This document shows positions 2,868 through 21,112 of a DNA stretch of 22,416 bases, in pieces; positions within the stretch are counted from its first letter, which is position 1; every line of letters starts with the position of its first letter. This DNA comes from Syncephalis plumigaleata (lineage: Eukaryota; Zoopagomycota; Zoopagomycetes; Zoopagales; Piptocephalidaceae): contig JAIXMF010000225.1 of assembly GCA_025201365.1 (NCBI GenBank), positions 1-22,416 of the forward strand, read 5' to 3'. Below the pieces are notes generated by a model. That model did not search any database, was not told the origin of the DNA, and saw only the letters and a list, made by a program, of their open reading frames with translations. A program made the position numbers and the translations under genes.

Positions 2868-4361
2868 TTAGACCTCGAGTTCCTTGGCTGGTGGCGGTAT
2901 AATCCAAAAATTACGATCAATGGCATCGGCCACTTCTGGACTTGGTGGAAAGTTCTCCAAACAAGTGTCGGTGCGAGCCAAATGAACGTAGACATCAGTG
3001 CCATGTCCCTCCATCGATACTAGATCGAGATCACCGCCAAAGTAGCGGGCAGCAAGACGAGCCACCGGCAATCCACGTCCAAATCCGAAGCCTGGCATGC
3101 AACTAAGATTGCTCGAGTCACCATTGCCACTGCTGGGTTGCATGGCAAATGGACATAACGAACGGAAGTTGCCATTGGCATCGGCTACCGCTTTAGAGGC
3201 AGCGGTGGTAAGATTGCCGGTATGTAAATGGGCCTGCACGACATCCTCCCAGTTATACCACCATAGACGCTCCACTTGACGAGCTGGCGTGCCACCGGCC
3301 ATATCCGATATCTTGAAACTTACATCCTCCTCGCCATTGACCATGACCACTTTTACAGGAGGTGGCATAAGATGACGAGATGATGACATGCTATTACTAT
3401 TACTATTATTACTATTGTTATTGACTGCTGTCTTGAAATGATGCTCGACTGTGCCGCGCAAGGCAAAGGTGATTGTCTCGTAAAGGATACGTCGTAGATG
3501 CTCTGGAATGTAGGTGGCGGAGACATTTGGATCAGGAGCAATGAACTGCACCTCGGGAACAGATTGACCGTACATGGTGGAGCAACTACGACGAGCATCT
3601 TCAATGGCTTGTCGAGCAATCTCATACGGCTGAACGACATCGACTAGCGTGCGGCGATGATCACATAGCGTCAAATGATTGCCGATGAGCATGTGCGTGC
3701 CTAGGTGAGCCGAGAAGAATCTTCCCAGGATACGTTGCGTTTGTCGCGTGTCCTCATTGTGTTCCAGACTCGACAGCGGGTTGACTCCCTCGCCCAAAGT
3801 AAGAATAGAATGACGTTGCCGCTCGCGTACCTTACGTAGTACATCGGTGAATCCCATGGCTTGCTCTGCCGTTTCGGGTGCCGGTGTAGTCAAGAGTAGC
3901 TGTATATCAGTGACGTACTGATGGATGACGCGTTCCACCACCTTAGTACGTAAGATGGAATGACGAGATGACGCAAGCGCTTCCGACTGTGGCAGAGTAG
4001 CATCGAGGAGAGCCACGCTCTGTCCAAGACGTATGGGCAATTCTTCGTGGAGGAACCGAGCCGGTGCTATTAACGCGGATCCATCTTGGCTTGCCAACAC
4101 CTCACGATTCCTTGTAAACATCTCCTTGAGCTGTGAAGAACCACCAATAAAATCGATGAAACGATACAGTTACCAAAAAAGGAAATTAGCATTATTCCAT
4201 GCATATCGTTGATTCTCTCACATCAACCGTATCAACGCCAACATCAACATCAATATTGCTATTAACTTTCTACTTACCGAGATGCGCGTTACAGCTGCAG
4301 TGGTGAGACGATGTGCCAGACTGGAGGGCAGCATTCGTAGAGCTGTTACAGCAGGTTTCAT
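2868..4361 (-). CDS. Mitochondrial PDK/BCKDK-family protein kinase, divergent
   Basis: Exons 4361-4278 and 4130-2868 give 448 residues; the 147-nt intron 4131-4277 has GTAAGT and TTCACAG and joins in phase 0. The family (GHKL fold) phosphorylates pyruvate or branched-chain ketoacid dehydrogenase in the mitochondrial matrix. Exon 1 is rich in Ala, Arg and Ser with no acidic residue, typical of a targeting peptide. Family marks are FLHEELPIRL, the H-box-like RQRHSILTLGEGV (His135), FFSAHLGTHMLIGNH, DMAGG (304-308, normally DRGGG), and the glycine-rich GFGFGRGLP followed by ARYFGGDL and HGTDVYVHL. Odd points: the N-box reads YETITFALR, so the usual Lys-Asn is Thr-Phe (249-250), and a poly-Asn/Ser insert lies at ~265-279. 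An additional 5' exon is possible (4536-4636, joined to 4362 across a 173-nt intron), which would add an N-terminus with QFAHKLPRLPEETP, reminiscent of the FAxxPxTP start of PDKs. Start therefore uncertain; family sure, activity doubtful. Confidence 0.85.
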
Positions 4362-5405
4362 ACTGATATACTGATGGCAAGTTTAATCAAACAATCAATC
4401 AATCAACTAATAGAGTATGGAAACAGGGTAGAGGATGGAGTAGACTTTCAGTTAAACTGATTGCGCTAACGAATAAACCAAAGGAGTAGCAACTGTAATA
4501 GCAGTGATAATAATAGTAATAATAGGGATAATAACTAACGAATATGTTTTATCGGTGTTTCTTCAGGTAAACGAGGTAATTTGTGTGCGAATTGTAGAGC
4601 CATATCGAATGATGAGCAATGGAGCCGAATAGTCATTGCTGTATAATAAAAACCAAATAAGAAAGAAAGAGAGAGAGAGAGCCAAAGTAAATAAAAAGTA
4701 TGCCAAAATAAAGCTATAGCCTATATAGTTAAGTGCTGTTTAAACCAGATAGCCAAAAGAGTATACGCGCAAATAAAAAAGAAGGATTTAGAAAGCCATG
4801 TTGACCAAGAGTAAATCAAATAAGAAACCAGTAGAAAAAAAATAGAATAGAGAAAGAACGCCGCTAGGAGGCATGACGCGAATTAGCAGACCTATTTAAA
4901 TGCAAGCGTGGTGAGGGGAATAATAACAGCAGCAGTAGTGGTGGTAATAATAGGTGGACGAATGAATGAATGAATTCTAGGGCAGTTATTACATCCAGCA
5001 TCCGTATTCGTCATATGTTCACCTCGTTCACTACCATTGGTTTGGCAGTCGGCTGAGTGGAATCCGATATCCGACGCAAATCCTCCAATTTAGAAACATG
5101 TCACTTCACAAGTAAAGCGCAGCATGGCACAATAGTAGTAGCAATGAATTCGGCAGAAATCGTCTACTTCTGGCCAGCAAGTAAAGAAGCGAGAATATAA
5201 CGGGATGTTTATTTATTTTTTCTTTTGTTTATTCCAATGTGGTAGCTATGGCCACGATAATAATAAAAATAGACTTGAGAATAAGAAGTGAACAGATGAT
5301 ATTGTATTTGCTTGTAGAACGGTTAGATTGCTATCACTAACAGAGATCACATCATGTATAGACGAGTATAATGTAGTCAGTGTTTGATACGAGAATAATC
5401 TATTT
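4362..5405. other. Divergent intergenic region upstream of the PDK-like and left-arm genes
   Basis: About 1 kb between two divergently transcribed genes. It holds a possible extra first exon of the PDK-like gene at 4536-4636 on the minus strand, a purine tract of GAAA/GA repeats around 4661-4681, and T-rich leader-like sequence when read on the minus strand. A short minus-strand frame at about 5020-5110 (ends VVNEVNI then stop) looks coding-like but has no supportable start or splice acceptor. No tRNA or long ORF was seen. Confidence 0.5.
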
Positions 5406-5540
5406 ATTTGAAGTGGGACGTGAATGAAATAAAAGAAAAGAAGAATAAAGCAATAACCATTTAGTATTGATGCTTCTTCGTTTTCGTTCTACCTATTAGC
5501 AGCGTCTCATTGTTTTATTACGTACAATAGGAGGGAAATA

Positions 5541-6657
5541 ATGCATTTCAGAGCAAGTATTTTTACTGCCATTGGTGCTGGACTGTCACAGTTATTCTCA
5601 TCGAACGATCACACTTCTCGGACAGCATCGAATGGTAACTGCATGTCTTGATTAGAGAAGCCATCCGCTCAGTTCGACTAACTAGGTGTATATCGCTAGT
5701 AGATGTGCAATTCCATGGGATACCCCTTCGTACACCAACTGATTTTGGAGTTACGGTAAAGAAAGTGCTGCCATCTTTCCAAGGGGCCAGTTTTGCCGAG
5801 GGAACCTATCAACGAGGTCAATCGAAACACAAAGAGAAGGTTATAATATTCTGTGGCACTGATGCCACTCGATACACAACCTATCGTGTTTTCCGGGTAA
5901 CTACACCATGCCAGCTAGTGTTGTCATGCTCATTAACCACTAATGATCGATAGAGTTTTGAGATCCTGCCACCGCCTGCAGACCCGAGTATTGCTGAGGC
6001 TAGACGGTTTTTCTGGTCGCCATCCGTTGCCTTCAATACCAATACAGGTCATCGATGCTATATCGTTCCCACTTGGATACACTGCCACGACAGCTTGGAG
6101 CGTGGTCTTGCAAACTTCACTAGCAATACGGATACTGCTAAGAAAGTACTTTTACAAATATCGCAAGGTAAATGGCGGCGGTAGAACTCGGCACAGATAT
6201 TCGTTAACGCTTATTCCGCTAGCCGTACAGTACATGTGGCATATGGGATGGGCGTACCATAGAAATATAAGCGAAGGTATATCTTCCATGTCATTTTAAC
6301 GCTTGTAATAATAACACCGCTACTTCATTATTAGGTGCCTGTCTTACCTCGAACAAGGACGTGCTCTTTACCAATTATCGTCACACGTATTCATCGAATT
6401 TCATCGAGTTCCCTCCAAATGATAGAAGGCTCGAGATTGCCGCGTCAAACGAAAAGCTTTGGTATTCGCTGGCGGAATATTATACGTATACAAAAAAGTA
6501 TCACGCATTACCTGAGAGTTTCATACTAGTCGTTCAGAGGGAATACGCTCATTTGAGGTTGCCGCCACCTGCGGACATCTCCTATGGAAGAATCTCCAAT
6601 GGTACGTCTTTTGTAGAGGATGTTCCACCTCCACCTTACCAGGCCACTTCATTATGA
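5541..6657 (+). CDS. Degenerate protein-kinase-like protein (pseudokinase candidate), left-arm copy
   Basis: Five exons (5541-5634, 5700-5896, 5954-6167, 6223-6276, 6335-6657) encode 293 residues. The four introns are 65, 57, 55 and 58 nt; the first two show good CTAAC/CTAAT branch sites. The N-terminus is weakly hydrophobic (residues 7-19), a marginal signal peptide. Kinase-like marks: a Gly-containing segment GASFAEGTYQ (~53-62), HKEKVIIFCG in the position of beta strand 3, and a segment AVQYMWHMGWAYHRNIS (169-185) that matches the helix and catalytic loop of protein kinases (HRDxK) with Asn183 in place of the catalytic Asp. The next motif, where DFG would be, reads LFTNY. The C-terminus has a conserved-looking NFIEFPPNDRR segment and ends Pro-rich (PPPPYQ). 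I infer an inactive kinase-fold protein of a lineage-expanded family; identity beyond this is not recognised. The copy at 17312-18428 differs by Thr28 to Ser only. Confidence 0.8.
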
Positions 6658-7431
6658 GGATATCTGTATGATATGACGCGTAATTCATTAAGTATTGAAG
6701 AAGTAACTATTGAGCTGTATCGATGTAATGGTCAGAATATTACATATTTATTCAATAAATATCTATTATTTATGTAATAGGATCATGGATGAATAGACGT
6801 AAGGGACTTGTAGATATACTACACGATAGCTTCCAATAATGGAGCGTGCAAGTAATTATTATCCTGACTTGATTGTCACATTCCTACAAATGGCATTCAT
6901 TATCATGACATCTACATGACATGTTCATTTGTATGTCATCTATCATTGTTCATTCCATTGTCAATTGACGTGATCGATACTGATTGCAATCTATCACGAC
7001 ATGTCATCGAATGATCCCACAACCATATGGACATGAATATACTTGATGGTATCTATAATGCGATACGATATTCATCCGATTCATATGATCACTGTTCAAG
7101 CATCATCCCCTCACATACATACACGTTTACTACATGTAAATCAAATGGCATACTTTTGGTATTATCATTCTATTATGTGAGTATGTAATCCCCCATTAGC
7201 AGATGCTTTATTCTTTGTTTAGCATTCACCTCATGTTATTTACCACAATGCGAATGCCATTAAGGCTGCATCAAACAATGCTCTGCATAACTAGAATGTA
7301 TCTGCCAAATAATAGAAATACCAATAATGGTGTTAATGTATACGCAAATTTTTTTATTAATAAGAACAAAAGGTAATGACTAACAGTGTTTGTCGGTTGG
7401 AAAAAACTCTGTAATAATGTTTCCATTATAA
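6658..7431. other. Intergenic region between convergent kinase-like genes
   Basis: The 3' flank of the left-arm gene up to the stop of the next gene. Positions up to 7020 belong to the inverted repeat arm. It contains a perfect AT-rich palindrome at 6744-6762 (9-nt arms around one C), itself within longer near-palindromic sequence (TTACATA...TATGTAA), and likely 3'-end signals such as AATAAA. Repeated CATGACAT words occur at about 6904-6930. No coding exon seen. Confidence 0.6.
6744..6762. repeat. Perfect AT-rich palindrome
   Basis: ATATTTATT, C, AATAAATAT: a 19-bp palindrome 87 bp after the stop of the left-arm gene, also present in the right arm at 17207-17225. It could form a hairpin or cruciform and overlaps an AATAAA on the plus strand, so it may simply be part of the 3'-end signal. 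Confidence 0.75.
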
Positions 7432-8696
7432 CTAGGACTTGCGTGGCGGTAGCCCTCTTAATGCGAATATAGGAGAGGAGCAGATAAATGGATCAGATTG
7501 GGTTGTGTAATACACTTTAAGAAGATAAAGTATTGCAGGACTGGCTGCATTTACATCACCTAGTTGTACCTTGGCATAGCGCTCTTCTTCCCGAAGCCTT
7601 TCTAAATAATCTTGCGCGCTTTCGTAGCTCAATACAAAGCTAGGATCGAAAGGGTTCTCTTCTTCCTCGAGATAAACAAATACGTTTAAAAATCCAGCTA
7701 TCGTATCCTTAAGAAGCTTATTACAGCTCAGGTATTGTTGAGGTGGCTTAGGCGATAAATGTCTCTGGTCCTTCGGGTTTATAGGTTGCCAGCCTTGTTT
7801 TCCTTTAATTATGGTCGCTAAATCAAAATCAATGATCCTTACACCAGCTATTCTACCAGTTGTATCTTTCTCTAGCATGACATCTATATTCCATTGTTAG
7901 CGTATTTCATGATAAGAATGTTTACTTACTTCTCGGAAACAAATCACCATGAATAACACCAGCATTGTAAAGGTAAATTGCACCTACAAAGCAATCAGTA
8001 AACATGTTATATATGAATAAGCATAATACTTACCTTTAATAACTTCAGGTAATACCTTGACACCAATAAGAAATGCCTGAGATATGGTTACTTTTGTGAA
8101 GTAATCTTCTAGTGTTTCACCATTGATATAGCTGTAAATATGGCAGAAGTATTTATTGCCATTGGCTTCTTCAAAGCCAAATTGATGCAACGGATCCATA
8201 ACATTTTCTCGACCTATTGCGTAGTCGTCTGTCAACCTCTTTGCTTCCATTAATGCCTATTTTATGCCATATGGTGAGCGGACTATTTGATTAATAGATC
8301 GATGCACTTACTCTGAATGCCTATACTTCTGCTATATTCTTTTCAATTACATCCACTTTAGATCCCTTTGCTTTGCTTGATACTTGATCGCATTTCATAA
8401 AGCCTTTTTGGTTGTTCCAAATTACGTGAGCTAGTCTAAGCTGATCTTTATTTCCACCGCGCCATTCTATAGTCGATAGTCCGAACTCTTCATGCTTTGC
8501 CATTACATGTTTCTGGGCAAAAGTAATAGGAAGAGTATTAGCACCTATAAACAAGTTAGCAGACATCGGATAGACCACATATGAATAACTTGCCATCTTT
8601 GAGAACACCAAAGACTGAATGAGCGCTGGGTAACTGGGATAACAATGCTAAAGCACAAGTGCTAATAGTCAATGCAGAATGTAGAGTTACTCGCAT
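7432..8696 (-). CDS. Predicted secreted protein-kinase-like protein
   Basis: Five exons (8696-8579, 8544-8327, 8256-8034, 7983-7930, 7883-7432) give 354 residues. Residues 1-~25 form a clear signal peptide (basic N-terminus, LTISTCALALL core, PSAHS cleavage region). The rest is kinase-like: GFMKC with Lys90 in the beta-3 position, a glutamate-bearing helix (EALMEAKRL), a hinge-like IYSYINGETLEDYF, a catalytic loop HGDLFPRN (Asp200, Asn205) and IIDFDLA (Asp223) in place of DFG. Key catalytic residues are thus retained, with Gly for Arg after His, as in several atypical and small-molecule kinases. Introns 2-4 (70, 50, 46 nt) are well supported; intron 1 (8545-8578, 34 nt) is unusually short, with an alternative donor upstream giving the same phase. 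An in-frame TAG at 8321-8323 is removed by intron 2. It is convergent with the left-arm gene, and a TATA-like CTATAAATG lies near 8803-8810. Secretion and activity are inferences. Confidence 0.8.
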
Positions 8697-8799
8697 ATTG
8701 TTCGTTATGGCTTAAGAGCAAAGAAGTGGATGTGCTTATGTTGTGCGTGTAAATGAGAAGAGAATAGTGAGCTATCGAATTGTTCACGGTAAATGGTTG

Positions 8800-9190
8800 C
8801 TCATTTATAGGTGAGTAGTCGATGGCTACGGCATTGAAGTGTTTTCAAAACGATGTATCAAATAAACGAGCCATGAAATTGTTGGCCTCATGTAATTTCG
8901 AATGATATATATTAGGCGGCATTTACGGTACTCATTTATAGCTGTGGTTCTGTTACAGCTAACATGAGTGAAATCCAGAATAATATATTGGGATGCCTTT
9001 CAAAACGAAGTATCAAATAAACGAGCCATGGAATTGTTTGCCTTGTGTAGTTGCTAATTATAGATATTGAATGACATTATGGTATTGGCCTTATTGCAAA
9101 CCAACATGGATAAAGGCCATAATAGTTGTTGAGGACTATTAGGGTCCTGATTCTGTTACAGCCAGCGTGAATGAAATCCATAATAATGTA
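8800..9190. repeat. Imperfect tandem duplication in the kinase-like gene's upstream region
   Basis: Two diverged copies of a 150-200 bp unit. The word TTCAAAACGA-GTATCAAATAAACGAGCCATG occurs at 8844 and again at 8999, with following AATTGTT-GCCT-TGTA-TT also shared. A second shared block starting CTGTTACAGC and running to GAAATCCA-AATAAT occurs at 8950 and 9153. A shared CTCATTTATAG precedes at 8800 and 8930. Spacing differs (155 versus 203 bp), so units have indels. Probably duplicated promoter sequence, perhaps from former tandem copies of the kinase-like gene. Confidence 0.75.
8802..8810 (-). promoter_or_regulatory. TATA-like element upstream of the secreted kinase-like gene
   Basis: CTATAAATG on the minus strand, about 110 bp before the ATG at 8696. 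The same word with its flank (CTCATTTATAG on the plus strand) recurs at about 8930-8940 in the repeated upstream region, which makes the assignment of the working core promoter uncertain. Confidence 0.45.
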
Positions 9191-10957
9191 ATGAATTCAG
9201 CTGTAATTGAAACATGCATGATTGATATTGAAATGAAATGGAGTTCGATCTAGCTTCAATAATAGCTCGATCTACATGATGCATTGGTATACAACTAGCT
9301 AACATTAGAGCATACGAGATAATAGACAAGTCATTGAATACACTCCAACTATAATGGCAATGACCATTAAATCATTGTTTCTACTTGTAAGCCATGTTGT
9401 CATTCAGTTATAGTTCGTGATTCAAGTATTAGGTAGTAGTAGTGTATTCATGTCAATGCACGCACGATCACGTCAGATGATCAGTATCTATTGTGTTGTT
9501 CGATGATTTGCCATACAAGCTATTACAATGACTACAGGTAAATATACATCCATCGATATTAATGTATAATCAGTGAGTGGATGAGTGATATATTCTAGTT
9601 GATTGTATACTGCTGATAACTGAATATGAATGATAGGAATAGTAGTAGTAGTAGTAACTAGCTAGTTGTATTGGTTGAAAGTAAAGTATGTTCAATAGAG
9701 TGTAGAGAATACAGCGATATGTATGAAGTTGATATGGTGTTTATTGGCTGAATGAGAATAGAAGCAGAAGGACAAGTAGTATGGATAGCAGTAGGAGTGA
9801 ATAGAGCGAATGAGCACATATGCTTATAGAATACAAACAAATAAATAAATAAACAGAGTTGACAGGACAAGAAAGAGCAGCAGCAGCAGCAACTAGTGAA
9901 TAGAGTGAACACCGCGTATACACCACTTACCGAGTAGATTACAAATAAACAATAGAGATACGAGTGTATGAATAGAGTAGTGGACGAGTAAGCGAACAAG
10001 CTATCAGTACAAGCAACAAGCAGTGCTGTCAATAAACTATTGAGAAGCAGTGTTCGTTGTGAGCGATATTAACCAAACAATATGCTTTAGCAAGTGGTAT
10101 ACTGCCGGGAGAAGCTATAGCAGTACAATACTGGTCGACTAGCCTGCATGTATGCATATAAAGCTACTCCTAGCAGTCAATACAGACTGATGACGATACG
10201 CATACAGACCGGTAAGCAAACAGTGTGAGTATCCCATAGGAGCATACAGTGATAGAATACGGGTAAATGGTACGGATCTGACGAGAGTGCAGTATCGTAG
10301 TTTGATAAACAAGGGAGAGGGTCAACAAGTAGCAGTAGTATCGTGCACAGGTACAAGCACCAGAATAGAATACAAATAAACAGTGTAGCCTTATCGTGTA
10401 CGAGTGTTATAGAGTGGAGGACAAGCACAGCGGAATAAAGTGCATATAACGTGTAATTGCAGTGGCTGTCCGTAGAGAAGCATCACAAGCTGCAAAGAAG
10501 TAAAAGCAATAGAGAAAACGAATAGAACGCGTAAACATATGACGTGGCGTTGACCTATTGCTAGAGCAGCAGCAGCAACAATAGGAATAGGAATATACGA
10601 ATAGTGAAGGTGACCGAGAACAACAAACGAGTAATGAGAAGAGGAGTACAGGTATGGGAGTGTATTCAGGTAAGAGACGTGTAGTGTTAGCGTAGCGAGG
10701 AGCAAATGGAAAGTGGCTAACAGGGAAAGACGGGTAGAGGAATGAGCAGTGAGATTAGTGAATAAAGATTTATTAATAAGTTCATTCAGATTGTTGTATT
10801 GTCCTTAGTGTTATACATAGTAATTTGCGAGCATGTTTTACATAAATCATTAACTACCAATTATATTTTTATAAAGGATTTTTAAACTATTTCATAGTTT
10901 CTGACTGATGTATCGCCTACCTCTTCCTTTCACTCTTTGTAGTATTCGTACACTAGA
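9191..10957. other. Long gene-poor interval with purine-biased degenerate repeats
   Basis: No convincing gene. From about 9740 to 10750 the plus strand is strongly rich in A and G with recurring words such as GAATAGAG, ACAAGCA and ACAAATAAACA. Two segments starting ACAAATAAAC at 9941 and 10372 share a further TACGAGTGT-AT-ATAGAGT-GGAC-AAGC pattern, which suggests decayed duplication. The minus strand therefore shows ORFs of 83-124 codons (9658-10032, 10177-10428, 10391-10705), but these are Leu/Ser/Tyr/Cys-rich, without recognisable domains, and I treat them as composition artefacts. A short AAAT microsatellite lies near 9837-9854, and an AGC tract near 9877-9890. A non-coding transcript is possible. 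Confidence 0.5.
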
Positions 10958-13819
10958 ATGTCGCGACAGCAGCAAGGTAATAATCAGCGTATGAATCAGG
11001 CGAATTCAGCCAGACCAATGCCGAGAATGCCGCAACCCGGTGGAGTTTATGGTGTGCCACCGCCACCCCCACCGCCACTGCCACATCCTTCGGGCTGGAC
11101 ACAGCATCCAGGACCTACTGGACAACCATATTACTATAATACTTTTACGCGACAGAGCACATGGAAACGTCCGCCCGAGTTAGACCAACCGTTGCCTATG
11201 CGTATGCCACCACCGCCACCACCACCGGTACATACCTACGCGTATTCCGCACCGATCAATATGCCCGCAATGACTATGACAATGTCGAATCCGACAGCTG
11301 GTAAAGAAGCGATAACCAGTCAGCAGGATACGACAGTTAAAACAAAGAGCGGCAAGGACAAAAAGAAAGATAAGGCGAAACAAATGTAAGTATAATAATA
11401 ATAATACGAATGACTGATGCTAACAAATACGATAATTTATAGGACATTAATACCTGGCACTCATTGGAAATTGGTAAAGACGGCCGAGGGTAGAGAATTC
11501 TATTATGATACAGAAACGAAGAAATCTGTATGGACAATGCCCGAGGAGATTGCAGATGCCGTTGAAGCATTGAAATCGGCACAACAAGAATCAGCTAAGC
11601 GAAAGATCGACAGTATTACTAATGAACAAGTGGAGGAAGTCTCCGTAGCGAGTTTAACATTGGAGAAAACTGAAGACGAGTCCAGTAAGCGTCCAAAAAT
11701 TGAAAATGTACGATTGCAGACGGAAGTGCCTTCTACAACTGCTCCAACAGTGGCAAACACAGAGTAGGTAGCTTATTAACAACATAAGCGCAACTAATTG
11801 ATGGAAACATTCGCTATTTTATGATTTTTATACAATTAGAATGACTGAGGAAGATATCATGTTCCAACTTCAAGCGATGGAACAAGAAGAAGTGGAGGAG
11901 CAAGAAACGAGTCGGGCACAGGAATCTGCCATATCTCCCGAGGCTGCTTTATCATATGAAGAACGCGTGGTATTGTTCAAGGTAAGTAAGTTGGATGAAC
12001 TATAATAATAACGATAACGATAACAATAATGATGATGAATATGCAACTGTTTAGGCACTGCTTGAAGAGTCAAATATATCGGCATTCTCGTTATGGGACA
12101 AAGAACTACCTAAAATTGCGTCTGATCCACGCTATCTACGTAAGTATACTTATTTAACTAGTTATTAATGATTGCTAACATTATTGCTTATGCTTCTTAG
12201 TTATCCCTTCGGTAAAACAAAGAAAAGAAATATTCGATGACTATTGCAGACAACTGGTAAATAAGCCTAAAGGCCTAGTTGTCGGTAGAAAAAAGGTACG
12301 TCATTTATAGATAGCAGAGGAGTATTAGAGAAGCAATCATTAATCATGAAATAACTATAGACGTCAAAAGAGAAATACCAGGCATTATTGGAGCAGCATG
12401 TCACTGCTACAACTAGATGGCTAGATTTTAGCCGCAAGTATAAGCGTGACTCGCGATTTAACGCGATAGATATCAAGGAAGCAGAGCGTTTATTTGAGGA
12501 ATACATTAGCGTACTCAAGGAGGGTAGTCGGGCAGAAAGTAAGTATAATATTAATGTAACCAATCAAATGGACTAATACATGTGCGATAGTTAAAGGTAA
12601 CAAACAAAATAAGATTAAAGAGGATTATTTGCAGTTATTACGGGAAACACGCCGAATTGACGCCGAGTCAAGCTGGCGCGAGGTAAGACGATAATTAGCA
12701 AGCGTGCAATGAATTAATACAAGTATATAAATATATGTAGGCAAAACGCATGATCGAAAGGGACGATCGCTATCATGCGGTAGACTCGACGGATGATCGA
12801 GAAGATTGGTTCTACGAATATCGTCGAGAGTTGGAGAAACGAGCGAATGAAGATAAGCAAAGACGCGAGAAGGAGGAGAAAGAACGGGAACGTCGTCGAA
12901 AGTAAGTGGAATATAAAAAATGCTCTACATCATCATCGTTATTATTCTTCTTCTTCTTTCTAACTAGTATTTTATTTGTAGAGAGGAAGCAAGCTTACGG
13001 GAAAGGGAGAGACATGTTCGTCGCGAGCGTAATCAACTGGACCGGGAAACGAAAAGCCAGCGCGCAATGGTCGATAAAGAAGATGCGACACGATTATGCC
13101 AGGCGTTATTTATTGACAAGATCAAAGATCATACGGTAAGTGGTTATACGTATACTATAGGGCGACGATAGAAGCGACAATAGTAATGATGACATAATAT
13201 AACACGATAGGTAACATGGTCTGACGCGCAACCGGAATTGCATCATGATAAACGAGTTGAAAAGTGTGCGGATATCCTTGGTCTACGCGAAATGGAAGAG
13301 CTATACCAGACGCATATTGACATTATCTATCGAGCACGCGAGAAAGCATTCTTTGCCTTGATAGAAGAGCGAGTGCCTTTATCATTAGATTGGAAGGAAG
13401 CGAAACAATTGATTATCGACCAGGATGCAACAAGGCAGCTAAAATTAAATGAACAACAGCTGACGGATCTATTTACTCGACATCACACGACACGGATAAT
13501 AAAGGCAAAGCAAGACTTGCAAGCATTACTGGAGGAGAATACGTTTATTGAATTCCACGCTCGTGAAGGCACACTAACCTTGGAAACAGCCGCGGAAGTA
13601 CTTCGGGTAACTAACTGACTAGCAATCAAACCAAATAGCATATTTATTAATTTATTATAGGAGGACCAACGGTACTTGCAGTTGGATTTCATGTCGAATG
13701 AACGGGATCAAATAGTGACACGTTACGTCGAAGATCTAATAGCTAAAGTGGGACGTAAACCAACTGAACAATCAGATAATGATGCTGATGATGCTAATGA
13801 TGATATCAACGAGGATTAG
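10958..13819 (+). CDS. PRP40: Pre-mRNA-processing protein PRP40 (WW and FF domains)
   Basis: U1 snRNP-associated splicing factor that bridges the 5' splice site with branch-point factors in the nucleus. Eleven exons (10958-11385, 11443-11763, 11840-11981, 12055-12139, 12201-12295, 12361-12538, 12591-12682, 12741-12901, 12982-13135, 13211-13606, 13661-13819) join in frame to 736 residues. Two WW domains are present: the first W47...W69 with P72, after a Pro-rich run, the second W151...W173 with P176. FF domains follow: the first about 289-345 (ALLEESNISAFSLWDKEL), the second about 358-412, the third about 424-477, then a highly charged Arg/Glu helix and at least two more FF-like repeats to ~715, ending in an acidic tail. 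This is the standard PRP40/PRPF40 layout. Ten introns of 52-80 nt, most with GTAAG donors. It is convergent with the fasciclin gene, 87 bp away, with AATAAA at 13844. Confidence 0.95.
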
Positions 13820-13843
13820 GGAGCATTCATTCAATTATTATGT

Positions 13844-13849
13844 AATAAA
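13844..13849 (+). terminator. Putative polyadenylation signal of PRP40
   Basis: AATAAA 25 bp after the PRP40 stop, inside the 87-bp convergent gap. Assignment is by position only. Confidence 0.4.
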
Positions 13850-13906
13850 CATCACGCTATTACTCGTGTAGACATCTATTTACATTCTATTTATTTATTT
13901 AGCTAT

Positions 13907-14887
13907 TCATGATGTATTGTTACTGCGTTGCTTGAAACTATCAGAAAAGTGGAATAAATCATCGACCATCTTCTCGCTAACGTCATTAATAGAAAGATCG
14001 AGATCGGCTAGAGGATCGGCAAATTGATCGATTGGATAAACGATGCCATTCTGCGTTACAATCGGGTCACCAATAACATTAGCATCTTCAACGCGAATAT
14101 GACCTTGTCGTGTATTATTATTGCTATTATTGCTATGACTAGGACGTGTGATATGCAATGATACACCGGCCAGCGTTGGTACGTCATACTGTTGATTTGT
14201 CCAGATGGATTCCGGTGGAATAGTAGTTGGTACTAGATGGGCGGCAAGCGTGAATCCCATAAAAAGACGATTCAAATAGTCGTTAGGCAATAATAAGCGT
14301 CGAGCATTGGGTGACAAACGATCGAAAGCAGTATTGGTAGGTGCAAACATCTAAGCATATATATCGTCAATTGAATGGCACATTAATATTCTATATAATT
14401 ATCGTGTATTTACCGTTAGTTTTTGCGAAGGATCGGCAAGCATGTAACTATGCGCTCCAAACATATTTACAAATGCATTCAATTGCGAGAATTGCGGTTG
14501 CTGCGCAATAATCGCACCGATCGTGTTCGGTACACGAAGCACGGGACCGTTGAAACTTGATGCAAGCCGTACTTTAGGCATCCAGTCGAACACTTTAACA
14601 AACGGTAAGCCTGGTAATGGCCCCTTCTCTACAATGGGCGGTAGCTTTCTTTTTCGCGTGGATGCACGCTCACTATCGTGCTTACTACGAGCAAGCTTCA
14701 CTCGAACCGGCAATGATTCTAGTGGCCCATTTCGAACGGTCACATTAATAGCGGGCACGAGCACTGTAGCTGCCACACCATTCCCTATATAATGATTGTT
14801 GCCAATGATCAATTTATTGTTGTTTTCTAGCCAAATAGTCGATAGTATAACCAATAGTAGAGTCACTCTAATGGACTCACGCATCAT
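13907..14887 (-). CDS. Secreted or surface fasciclin (FAS1) domain protein
   Basis: Two exons (14887-14414 and 14350-13907) give 305 residues; the 63-nt intron 14351-14413 joins in phase 0 within a FAS1 core (QKLT|MFAPTNTAFDRL). FAS1 domains act in cell-surface adhesion in fungi and animals. The first residues form a signal peptide with core VTLLLVILSTIWL after a basic start; the first of two adjacent ATGs was taken. A basic linker (STRKRK, ~78-83) could be a processing site. The FAS1 domain spans about 119-285: TIGAIIAQQP start, the H1 box FAPTNTAF, and the H2-like region ending NGIVYPIDQF. A short Ser/Asn insert sits in the domain's second half. There is no clear C-terminal hydrophobic GPI signal, so the product is probably soluble or wall-associated. 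Single FAS1 copy; the family is reliable, the role inferred. Confidence 0.88.
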
Positions 14888-15423
14888 TCTGAACAAAGTG
14901 AACTGGATGATGTTCTAACTAGAGTTAATATATAACAAAAAAAATAAGTAATCACCTATATCTACACTAATGATTCACACAAAACAAAAACAACGTAACC
15001 TAGCTTTACACCGAGTACCGCTCGTCGTCCAAGTAGGCAAGTAAGCAGTGATGATAATGATAATGATCGTAAGTGATATCACAATAAAATAACATATATA
15101 TATATAGAGATTATCAATGCTGACACTAGGGTAGGATAATGTATATGAATCAGCAGCTCTTTTGTTTATTTATATTGCTATTCACGTATGTCAATATCAT
15201 TATGAGGATTGCTCGTCAATTACAACACGTTTCCATACAACAACTATAGGTATATATATAATTTCGACATCACTTGGTAACTTTATTGAATCGATAATAT
15301 GTATAGTGAATGAGGGATATACATATGTGATGCGCTACTCAACAACCAGATAGTATAGTAGTAACTAGGGTACGCAATAAGTCCTACTTCCATAGGATGG
15401 ATATAATAATCATTGTCATTGTG
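14888..15423. other. Intergenic region, fasciclin gene to PHF5A
   Basis: AT-rich spacer upstream of the fasciclin gene and downstream of PHF5A. Contains TA microsatellites near 15093-15104 and 15251-15259. A 63-codon plus-strand frame at 15162-15353 has no coding character. Nothing else supported. Confidence 0.55.
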
Positions 15424-16172
15424 CTATCTTTGTTTAAACCCTAAATGAGACAAATATTAACGGCGTAAATGTGGCTCGATCGATGTGAATGGCTACATCT
15501 CGTTAACACTTACCGTATTTCTTTCTTTCGTAGAACAAGTCCGTTTTCGATGTACCTAAATTGACGATCTTTGGGCAGCCATCTCTCTACATACCATAGA
15601 TGATGTAAGCACATGAATCGTAGAAAGGAGAAGACAAGGCAATAAGATGAACAAACTCATTAATTAGTCGTCGTCGTCATCATTCTTCTGCTTTCTTTTA
15701 CTCCTTTCGTTATTATTATCATCAATATTATCCATAGAGATCCATCACGTAGCTATTCAGCTTAATCATGCACTATCTCTTTTTGTACTCGCTATTATCA
15801 TTGTTCACTTACATCTTTCTCCAGAACAGTACACTCTTTGCAGTAGTACGCGTCAGAAATGCCAACGCCACCGCATACGACACATCGTCCCTGGAAAGTA
15901 CCGTAGTTACACTCATCGCAGATGCGGACGAGGGTGCAGGGCCGTACATACGAGTCGCAAATAACGCATTTGCCGTCGCATTTCTCGCATAAACGACCGA
16001 TGCCTATTGTATCGATGAATTCAATAGTGGCAGCATTTCGATCATAAGAAATAGCAACATTACTATTATTAGTAATAGTTTCTTCTACTACGCTTGACTA
16101 TTAAAAGTGTCATCGCTTACCGATACCCGGCTGCTTACGGCACATAATAAGATCGGGATGATGTCTCGCCAT
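15424..16172 (-). CDS. PHF5A: PHF5A/Rds3-type zinc-finger subunit of U2 SF3b
   Basis: Four exons (16172-16121, 16003-15813, 15586-15514, 15440-15424) give exactly 110 residues, the length of the human protein, and can be read end to end against it. The product is a small SF3b subunit that helps U2 snRNP recognise the branch point. Visible marks are the start [14 protein letters not shown], then [27 protein letters not shown] and YYCKEC, giving the three-zinc knot of CxxC pairs, and the end ERKKYGFKQR. Introns are 117, 226 and 73 nt; the last exon holds only the final codons and stop. Intron 2 (15587-15812) is longer than usual for this window. This is one of the most conserved eukaryotic proteins, so the call is firm. 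It lies head-to-tail upstream of the fasciclin gene. Confidence 0.96.
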
Positions 16173-16948
16173 AATGCGTGTATTCAATAAGATTCAAGGA
16201 ATTGGAACAAGAAAAAACAACAAAAAACAACTTGCCTGTGAGGTGTTAACGCTTTCACACATAAATGCGCAAGTTTTATTATTACTAATTGTAATATATG
16301 ATATCGTCGCCTTTAACATCCCTCCATCCGTTAGGGCCGTGACAACGGTTAACATTATACGTGATACTTACCTCTCTTCCCTTTTAAATGCTTAGTTTTA
16401 GTTACTGATTAAAGTATATCACGCTAATGATCTTACTTTAGTTTTTAATTTTTCATAATGCACATTACGACTATCTTGGATGATGATTATTGACATGCAA
16501 GTATCTAGTGCTTTATTCCATGTTGAATTGATTGTCATTTTATTGCTTAATATCTGTGTTTATTCGAGTGTGTATCGTGAATACGACAATGTAAGCTTCG
16601 TATCATTTAATGCCATTGTATCTTTGCTGCAATGGTATAATGCCGCCTATAGCTCAGTAACAAACAGATAAAGTGACAAAAAACAATGCTATAATGTTGA
16701 GCATTGCTAGTAAGTGTACTAGTAGGATTCAGTATGTGCTACGTAAGTTTATGAGCAATTGGGAAGCTGTTGATAGAGTTAACTGCATGTGTATGTAAAT
16801 GAATGAATGGATTTATTAAATCATCAAGTATGCTGGTTTATACAGCGTAATCGATAATGATAATAGATCATATTAACTGGATGAATGTCGTATAGCATTA
16901 TAGATACCATCAAGTATGCTCATGTTCCATTGACACGTCCATATGACT
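16173..16948. other. Intergenic region upstream of PHF5A, next to the right repeat arm
   Basis: AT-rich. Plus-strand frames at 16174-16395 and 16480-16671 are short and hydrophobic without coding marks. From about 16865 to 16948 the sequence is a decayed (~80%) continuation of the inverted repeat with a small insertion relative to the left arm. A tRNA-like 5' end word near 16643 does not extend into a cloverleaf. Confidence 0.5.
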
Positions 16949-18563
16949 GTGGGATCATTCGATGACATGTCGTGCTGCATTGCAATCAGTATCGATCACG
17001 TCAATTGACAATGGAATGAACAATGATAGATGACATACAAATGAACATGTCATGTAGATGTCATGATAATGAATGCCATTTGTAGGAATGTGACAATCAA
17101 GTCAGGATAATAATTACTTGCACGCTCCATTATTGGAAGCTATCGTGTAGTATATCTACAAGTCCCTTACGTCTATTCATCCATGATCCTATTACATAAA
17201 TAATAGATATTTATTGAATAAATATGTAATATTCTGACCATTACATCGATACAGCTCAATAGTTACTTCTTCAATACTTAATGAATTACGCGTCATACCA
17301 TACAGATATCCTCATAGTGAAGTGGCCTGGTAAGGTGGAGGTGGAACATCCTCTACAAAAGACGTACCATTGGAGATTCTTCCATAGGAGATGTCCGCAG
17401 GTGGCGGCAACCTCAAATGAGCGTATTCCCTCTGAACGACTAGTATGAAACTCTCAGGTAATGCGTGATACTTTTTTGTATACGTATAATATTCCGCCAG
17501 CGAATACCAAAGCTTTTCGTTTGACGCGGCAATCTCGAGCCTTCTATCATTTGGAGGGAACTCGATGAAATTCGATGAATACGTGTGACGATAATTGGTA
17601 AAGAGCACGTCCTTGTTCGAGGTAAGACAGGCACCTAATAATGAAGTAGCGGTGTTATTATTACAAGCGTTAAAATGACATGGAAGATATACCTTCGCTT
17701 ATATTTCTATGGTACGCCCATCCCATATGCCACATGTACTGTACGGCTAGCGGAATAAGCGTTAACGAATATCTGTGCCGAGTTCTACCGCCGCCATTTA
17801 CCTTGCGATATTTGTAAAAGTACTTTCTTAGCAGTATCCGTATTGCTAGTGAAGTTTGCAAGACCACGCTCCAAGCTGTCGTGGCAGTGTATCCAAGTGG
17901 GAACGATATAGCATCGATGACCTGTATTGGTATTGAAGGCAACGGATGGCGACCAGAAAAACCGTCTAGCCTCAGCAATACTCGGGTCTGCAGGCGGTGG
18001 CAGGATCTCAAAACTCTATCGATCATTAGTGGTTAATGAGCATGACAACACTAGCTGGCATGGTGTAGTTACCCGGAAAACACGATAGGTTGTGTATCGA
18101 GTGGCATCAGTGCCACAGAATATTATAACCTTCTCTTTGTGTTTCGATTGACCTCGTTGATAGGTTCCCTCGGCAAAACTGGCCCCTTGGAAAGATGGCA
18201 GCACTTTCTTTACCGTAACTCCAAAATCAGTTGGTGTACGAAGGGGTATCCCATGGAATTGCACATCTACTAGCGATATACACCTAGTTAGTCGAACTGA
18301 GCGGATGGCTTCTCTAATCAAGACATGCAGTTACCATTCGATGCTGACCGAGAAGTGTGATCGTTCGATGAGAATAACTGTGACAGTCCAGCACCAATGG
18401 CAGTAAAAATACTTGCTCTGAAATGCATTATTTCCCTCCTATTGTACGTAATAAAACAATGAGACGCTGCTAATAGGTAGAACGAAAACGAAGAAGCATC
18501 AATACTAAATGGTTATTGCTTTATTCTTCTTTTCTTTTATTTCATTCACGTCCCACTTCAAAT
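16949..18563 (-). repeat. Right arm of the long inverted repeat
   Basis: Reverse-complement partner of 5406-7020. Near-identity covers 16979-18563; mismatches cluster at 16975-16978 and then the similarity decays. It contains the complete second copy of the degenerate kinase-like gene with 135 bp of upstream sequence. The two arms are separated by about 9.9 kb. Confidence 0.97.
17312..18428 (-). CDS. Degenerate protein-kinase-like protein (pseudokinase candidate), right-arm copy
   Basis: Five exons at 18428-18335, 18269-18073, 18015-17802, 17746-17693 and 17634-17312, mirroring the left-arm gene and coding 293 residues. All splice sites are intact. Relative to the left copy there is one missense change (residue 28 Ser instead of Thr, position 18347) and one synonymous change in the last codon (17317). 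The same catalytic-loop substitution (HRNIS, Asn183) and lack of DFG apply. The upstream 135 bp are shared with the left copy; beyond 18563 the sequences are unrelated, so distal regulation may differ. Its 5' end faces the 3' end of the RGG-tail gene in the same orientation. Confidence 0.8.
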
Positions 18564-19846: not shown

Positions 19847-21112
19847 ATGCAATTCGAGGAACTTCCCGCTGAAACGCAGCGTTTACTGCTTACGCTCGAC
19901 ACGCATATTCGTGCACAGTTACGCGCGGCTGATCTATTTGATCCTGCTCCGGTAATAGATGATGCCATACAAGTGCAAAAGACAGCTAGAGAATTGCAGC
20001 ATGCGGTCGCGTCTGTCGACACGGGTTTAACTCGTGACGAGTCGCTTATTGACGCGGTAAAACGCGACGTACACCGCAGCTTCCGCGCAGCCGAGAAGGG
20101 AGCACGTGCCTATGAGGCGTTCAAGCAACCGTCGCAAAGCAATATTCAAAGCTACGCGAATATTACGCACGAGTATTTCCTGGAACTAGCAACGCAAATG
20201 GAGCTACGTGCCGATCAATATCAGCAGGAGGTTGAGAAGATTGAACGCCATGTCACCTTGACTGTACGTGAGCCTACCACCTCTCCACAAGCATTGTCGG
20301 ATGTTATCCGGAATCAACATGCTGGACTTATGTCGCAAGCCGCACGTGTGGCACGATTACACGACGAAGTTGTTCGATCGCGGGCACGCTACAAGGATTG
20401 GCGTCGTCGTAATTATGGCGATGAACGTGATCCATTCACAAAACGACAACGACGCACGCATGGTAAGTGGATATAGATATATATCTGTCATTGTTGAGTA
20501 TACTCATTGTTATGATGCAATATTTATATTTATATGATTATAGGTCATGCTATAAATCTATCAGAGGATAAGGGCAGCGATATGAATAAATCAGAATTGC
20601 GATCGATTGCAGAGAGTACATTGCAACCTATGATGAATCAACAGCAACAGCAACAACGGCAACAACAGCAACAACCTATGGGTATTGGTGCAGCTACAGC
20701 AAGTACTGCTGGAACAAAAGGATTTGGAGGATTTGGAGGATTTGGTACTACACCTGCTACATCAACTGCTGCCACTACCACTGGAGGATTTGGAGGATTC
20801 AAGCCTCTTACTTCTGCTCCTGCTACATCTACTGCTACTACAGCTGGAGGATTCGGGGGATTTGGAGCTACACCTGCTACATCTACTGCTACTACATCTG
20901 GAGGATTCGGAGGATTTGGAGCGACATCTGCTCCTGCTGCTACTCCTGCTGCAACAAATAACTGGTCCATGCCAGCTTCTAGCAATGCAACATCTTCAGC
21001 TAATGCTTTCGCACCACCACCAGCACCAGTATCAACATGGCCTGCTGGAACAGGATGGGGCGGTACTGCCAATACTCAAGATACAAATAAGCGATTCTTT
21101 GGTGGCAATTAA
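19847..21112 (+). CDS. FG nucleoporin, Nup58/p45 (yeast Nup49) type
   Basis: Two exons (19847-20462, 20544-21112) with an 81-nt intron (GTAAGT...TTATAG, phase 1) give 394 residues. The product belongs to the central-channel Nup62-Nup58-Nup54 subcomplex of the nuclear pore. Residues 1-~200 are helical coiled coil: it starts FEELPAETQRLLLTLDTHI, has the family's YFLELATQMELRADQYQQEVE segment (~129-148), and ends in a basic YKDWRRRNYGDE stretch, all in the order seen in Nup58. Exon 2 codes a Gln run (QQQQQQRQQQQQ) and then FG repeats in GGFGGFG clusters separated by Thr/Ala/Ser spacers, ending RFFGGN. Opposite to yeast Nup49, the FG repeats lie C-terminal, and no N-terminal FG exon is seen in the short upstream gap. 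The FG spacers derive from a near-repeated DNA unit of about 60-70 bp. Confidence 0.85.
20701..20935 (+). repeat. Internal tandem repeat coding FG repeats
   Basis: Units of GGAGGATTTGGAGGATT followed by a CCTGCTACATCTACTGC-type spacer recur about every 60-70 bp, at 20726, 20783, 20845 and 20899. These code GGFGGF and PATSTA motifs in the nucleoporin. Copies differ by point changes. Confidence 0.75.

Follow-up and report, generated by a model that had tools for sequence, protein, structure and literature searches.

An inverted gene pair with signs of concerted evolution by gene conversion in Syncephalis plumigaleata

The stretch analysed here, referred to as the window, is the complete contig C141 of Syncephalis plumigaleata (JAIXMF010000225.1; 22,416 bases), from an assembly of 32.6 Mb in 383 contigs (GCA_025201365.1). 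At this locus two inverted copies of one small gene were found to enclose unrelated sequence, and the two arms that carry them were almost identical. The locus was interpreted as an inverted gene pair under concerted evolution, which is a known kind of system, and gene conversion was the best explanation for it. Overall, it is likely that an old inverted duplication, present on both haplotypes and probably seeded by a dispersed repeat, has undergone concerted evolution through gene conversion from arm to arm.

The extent of the arms was defined as follows:
5406..6990, plus strand: homogenised part of the left arm, sharing 99.8% identity with the right arm
16979..18563, minus strand: homogenised part of the right arm, sharing 99.8% identity with the left arm
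6991..7091, plus strand: inner end of the left arm, beyond the presumed conversion tract; over 6989-7091 it differs by 12.6% from the right arm
16866..16978, minus strand: inner end of the right arm, beyond the presumed conversion tract, counterpart of 6991..7091

Direct comparison of the arms bore out the near-identical inverted duplication that an earlier note on this DNA had described, since the homogenised parts, of 1,585 bp apiece, differed at exactly three sites (5622/18347, 6652/17317 and 6671/17298). Weaker homology continued inward to about 7091/16866. When BLAST was run over the arms extended in this way, the overall identity was 98.5%, because the last 100 bp were only ~87% identical. 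The change was abrupt, with the difference between the arms rising from 0.19% to 12.6% at about 6989.

The same structure was observed in a second contig, C124. The window aligned end to end with C124:138,590-162,293, both order and orientation being preserved, with 97.6% identity over 22,323 aligned bases and 46 indels, three of them of at least 20 bp. An inverted repeat with arm boundaries identical to those of C141 was present in C124 between the same unique flanks, and its arms were less similar to each other (95.3% identical by BLAST over the entire arm, and 96.6% over 5406-6988, with 55 of 1,595 differing). When the genome was searched with the arm, the best 40 of 169 candidates included four that were nearly full-length, one pair on C141 and one pair on C124; the 36 others covered just the final 170-270 query bases. 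Misassembly had been named earlier as the main alternative; as C124, an independent contig, carries the same structure with more diverged arms, this is now very unlikely. The inverted gene pair is, very probably, both genuine and old, and given that the inverted repeat occurs on both contigs, the duplication would be older than the split between the haplotypes.

Because of this end-to-end colinearity with C124, the window looks like the second haplotype of the C124 region. Further colinear contig pairs were detected, namely C125/C13 (98.4% over 2.2 kb), C335/C362 (97.0% over 3.4 kb) and C142/C318 (96.7–97.7% in the two longest pieces and 89.5–94.5% in the other main pieces), and C371 repeated C112 at the protein level. 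A partly phased assembly would give such pairs. A 4.1-kb piece of the inner block had places in the genome only on C141 and C124, and for a 3-kb stretch further along C124 a second long match was not found. Non-haploid early-diverging fungi are reported in PMC6784888, with which a heterozygous assembly would fit. One of the three longer indels was an insert of 1,123 bp in C124 alone, opposite window position ~10730, flanked at both ends by a short sequence that is present once at window 10732-10746. It held a frame of 339 codons in which a CCHC-like motif was seen by eye, and a search with 1,089 of its bases gave three other full-length matches at 99%, so that the insert looks like a young piece of a non-long terminal repeat (non-LTR) retroelement. 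The insert separates two real versions of the region.

The four arms, left and right of C141 and of C124, were then aligned together over 5406-6988, and only gapless columns were used. A total of 1,492 of the 1,583 gapless sites were constant. Both arms of each haplotype were grouped together at 33 sites, and not a single site (0) grouped the arms by left or right position; the private sites numbered 38 in the C124 right arm, 17 in the C124 left arm and 3 in a single C141 arm. Over this interval the C141 arms were 0.19% apart, compared with 3.28% between the left arms of C141 and C124 and 4.55% between their right arms. Hence, the arms of C141 were more alike than their positional counterparts across the haplotypes, as is characteristic of concerted evolution.

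The order of the site types along the arm was not random, as 32 of the 88 informative sites preceded the first haplotype-type site, and a leading run of this length was equalled in 0 of 100,000 shuffles. The first 480 bp of the arm (5406-5885) contained zero haplotype-type sites, and there the C141 arms were 0.8–1.0% from the C124 left arm and 5.2–5.4% from the C124 right arm, which suggested a left-to-right conversion in C141. Over the same 480 bp the C124 arms were 6.04% apart, versus 0.83–1.04% between the left arms. Over 5886-6988 the C124 arms were 2.64% and 1.42% apart, versus 3.84–5.56% from C141, and this likeness of the inner parts pointed to an older conversion event in C124. The arms are probably near-identical in C141 through the copying of DNA between the two copies, and gene conversion acting on an old duplicate accounts for this better than a recent duplication would.

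The genes on the arms were modelled as follows:
5541..6657, plus strand: left arm gene, 293 amino acids, model from sequence alone, exons 5541-5634, 5700-5896, 5954-6167, 6223-6276 and 6335-6657
17312..18428, minus strand: right arm gene, mirrored model, exons 18428-18335, 18269-18073, 18015-17802, 17746-17693 and 17634-17312

One predicted model suited both genes, with five exons, 293 codons, four GT-AG introns and zero internal stops, and the complete five-exon gene formerly proposed for each arm was upheld at the level of prediction, alternative splice combinations being also open. The gene was open with conserved splice sites in the four copies of C141 and C124 (4/4). The pairwise ratio of non-synonymous to synonymous divergence (dN/dS) was 0.17–0.32 in the six pairs; that of the C141 pair was 0.29, on two changes, and the left and right genes of C124 differed by 13.5 synonymous changes over 199.7 sites and 12.5 non-synonymous changes over 682.3 sites. 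On these ratios, the copies seem to be maintained as proteins.

When the arm protein was used as a query against the genome, with all 19 candidates scored, only the four arm places and one distant paralogue were detected. The paralogue, located on C112, was 29% identical over the aligned protein and had a second copy on C371. With so few members, the idea of an accessory family growing by inverted duplication found no support. The arm gene had also been called kinase-like, and this was not confirmed. Nothing above the cut-off was obtained from Pfam, nor any kinase when the search was extended to an E value of 10; a profile comparison with the protein encoded at 7432-8696 gave a probability of 0.2% (from a thin alignment of four sequences), and the PDB sequences returned two chance-level matches and no kinase at E values up to 10. 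The assignment of the arm gene as a kinase, for which a Y-H-R-N-I stretch and the look of the paralogue had spoken by eye, was consequently rejected.

Both arms ended inward in a dispersed repeat:
6719..7172, plus strand: dispersed repeat with tail A, inner end of the left arm
16464..17250, minus strand: dispersed repeat with tail B, inner end of the right arm

All of the 40 candidates scored with this repeat as a query (the best 40 of 188) matched, four of them being the arms themselves. When 25 other copies were aligned and sorted by eye, tail A was found in 7, tail B in 13 and other tails in 5; this sample includes pairs from matching contigs, which are non-independent. The tails of the left and right arms were therefore each common to other copies in the genome, and the matching between the arms stopped at the point where the repeat tails diverge. 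Arms that end in one repeat with differing tails suggested a repeat-mediated duplication, and the simplest reading would be a recombination between two repeat copies in inverted orientation, by which one of them took the neighbouring gene to the other side. A 13-bp insert was present in 4 of the 7 tail-A copies and 1 of the 13 tail-B copies (7/25 in all). The motif CACAGT was observed only at the inner ends of the C141 right arm and the C124 left arm, and in 0/25 of the other copies. In seven copies read for frames, the shared frames were short, with about 110 codons at most, and each of the longer frames was found in a single copy, within its flank.

Taken together, these observations are consistent with a history in which the genome would be diploid or otherwise heterozygous and both haplotypes would have inherited one small gene that had long been duplicated in inverted orientation; recombination between two oppositely oriented copies of the dispersed repeat probably gave rise to this duplication. 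In C124, an older event would have homogenised chiefly the inner two thirds of the arms. In C141, the latest conversion would have overwritten the right arm with left-arm sequence, from where the homology starts on its outer side up to about 6989, and the three substitutions would have arisen in the C141 arms after that conversion.

Several points weigh against this history. Taken over all of 5406-6988, the arms of C124 were 3.45% apart, and so not closer than the left arms of the two contigs (3.28%); C124 by itself would not show concerted evolution, which is clear only in C141 and in the inner portion of the C124 arms. The inner 100 bp, moreover, were crossed between the haplotypes, with the C141 left arm resembling the C124 right arm and the C141 right arm resembling the C124 left arm (3 sites and the 13-bp indel), and this is not explained by a simple one-way conversion. 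The allelism of the contigs was inferred from colinearity, with a strain mixture or a segmental duplication as alternatives, and consensus polishing could in principle have levelled the C141 arms.

These points were weighed with the other explanations for the similarity of the arms. A young duplication alone, without any conversion, would agree with the 99.8% identity and the sharp edge at about 6989, but is contradicted by the identical boundaries and diverged arms of C124, unless two independent duplications share their boundaries, which makes it extremely improbable. The assembler might instead have created the second C141 arm or evened it out: C141 is a short contig, its arms were judged from the assembled consensus, and such evening-out would likewise end where the divergence becomes high. 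Nevertheless, both arms were present in C124 between the same unique flanks with an arm divergence of 3.5–4.7%, and the three differences in C141 were private changes and not residual states of the C124 right arm, so that an artefact of assembly or polishing was considered very unlikely. It is also unlikely that C141 represents a paralogous segment or a second strain and not an allele, a view that would be compatible with gene conversion; allelism does rest on colinearity, but the other colinear contig pairs and the restriction of the 4.1-kb block piece to C141 and C124 argue against it.

The inversion of the 10-kb block through recombination between the arms, as envisaged in the earlier note, was not seen. 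Both haplotypes had the block in the same orientation, the opposite one was not found in the two haplotypes sampled, and no further near-full-length arm was detected among the best 40 of 169 candidates. A recurrent flip-flop, with crossovers that invert the block an even number of times and leave the inner ends swapped, would again be compatible with gene conversion. Arms so similar can recombine, as is generally known and as described in PMC9731477, and two flips with different crossover points would yield crossed inner ends such as those observed over the inner 100 bp, where CACAGT is limited to the C141 right and C124 left ends. However, besides the common orientation of the haplotypes, the crossed stretch is short, its other states are frequent in dispersed copies, as with the 13-bp insert, and ectopic conversion from another repeat copy could account for part of it. 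Recurrent flipping was regarded as unlikely, and gene conversion between the arms was retained as the preferred explanation.

The block enclosed by the arms contained the following features:
7432..8696, minus strand: kinase-like gene (Pfam Pkinase above cut-off) with an uncertain first exon and an N-terminus that is signal-peptide-like by eye only
8700..10740, minus strand: dispersed 5' flank of the kinase-like family
10958..13618, plus strand: PRP40-like gene, with WW-domain frames 10958-11389 and 11417-11767 (Pfam)
13907..14896, minus strand: fasciclin-domain gene, Pfam fasciclin in frame 13907-14350
15810..16050, minus strand: PHF5A-like gene, main exon, approximate ends, Pfam PHF5

The protein of the 7432-8696 gene is kinase-like by its match to PF00069, with 39.2 bits versus a cut-off of 31.7; a draft model with a different start reached 28.7 bits, under that cut-off. 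The genes listed in the earlier note for this block were recovered by Pfam as a Pkinase gene, a fasciclin gene, a PHF5 gene and two WW frames, the name PRP40 resting on the WW domains and the label given by the earlier reader. No family was matched by frame 13238-13618 of the PRP40-like gene or by frame 14399-14896 of the fasciclin-domain gene, and zero known RNA families were detected at the gathering threshold within the window. Elsewhere in the window, zero substitutions between C141 and C124 were observed over 3001-4500 (three 500-bp bins, around a BCKDH-kinase-like gene), versus an average of 2.4%, and a recent exchange between haplotypes is possible there. At 20685-20958, imperfect direct repeats that encode a GGFGGFG-rich stretch were found beside a nucleoporin-like frame.

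The kinase-like gene of the block belongs to a family with at least 56 other gene clusters among the matches listed (114 of 237 candidates, matching contigs included). The 2 kb located 5' of this gene were also repeated in the genome, in long copies that were 89–96% identical (best 40 of 131 candidates, 54 rows). Once 14 short pieces had been set aside together with the rows for C141 and C124, 38 long copies were left, some of which are pairs on matching contigs. Among these, 23 started at most 483 bp from the gene-proximal end, and 22 of the 23 were followed within 500 bp by a correctly oriented family member, the other one (1/23) being without a listed family gene. Of the 15 distal-only copies, one lay 2.5 kb upstream of a family member, four were located downstream of a member in the opposite orientation (one of them at 1.3 kb) and ten were without a listed family gene nearby. 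The distal flank was 92.2% identical to that of the C112 copy over 1,583 aligned bases, and the synonymous divergence of the two genes was 0.66; the value against the C353 copy was 0.71, and as C353 is 93.8% identical to C112 this is no independent test. A flank far more alike than the genes would be homogenised or strongly constrained, although in the C112 copy not right up to the gene, since the ~450 bp nearest to the gene matched that copy only in pieces, at 83–84%, which weighs against a uniform flank.

In the two copies read, L068 and L069, the gene was found between inverted repeats of at least 1.16–1.22 kb, the outer ends of which lay beyond the sequence read. Within the window, two direct repeats of 71 bp were also observed in the flank 5' to the kinase-like gene, at 8843-8913 and 8998-9068 (155 bp apart, 86% alike), and C124 had an extra 153 bp at these repeats. 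In the portions of the literature accessible to our search, no report was found of this locus or of a secreted kinase family with uniform flanks. These uniform 5' flanks may be the more interesting lead. Flipping of the block, an even number of times between the haplotypes, and the kinase-like family, with long flanks held uniform as the coding parts diverge and with some copies placed between long inverted repeats, might together form a variant-gene system with shared control regions, in a genome whose genes are routinely remodelled by inverted repeats and ectopic conversion, which we put forward as a speculative and improbable combination.

The nearest precedent, and a close one, is the flip/flop region of Saccharomyces chromosome XIV (PMC9731477), where 24 kb lie between two 4.2-kb inverted repeats. 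As in that region, gene-bearing inverted arms enclose unrelated genes and are homogenised within a genome, the boundaries are essentially shared between genomes (here, between haplotypes) and the arm genes are divergent and belong to a lineage-restricted family. In yeast, each arm starts at a tRNA gene and carries two genes, and both orientations are known and recurring; by contrast, the arms of the present locus measure 1.6–1.7 kb, carry a single gene and terminate within a dispersed repeat, and one orientation was found in two haplotypes. Gene conversion between arms likewise maintains similarity in homogenised inverted repeats and palindromes in general, such as those of a mammalian X inversion (PMC9731477) and of willow sex chromosomes (PMC7023750); the present locus has no link to a sex chromosome or a known inversion polymorphism. 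The two contigs provide a natural haplotype pair for one inverted duplication, one apparently freshly homogenised and the other not, in which the tract, the direction and the age of a conversion are readable from the sequence. The locus would extend the picture of the Saccharomyces flip/flop region to another genome.

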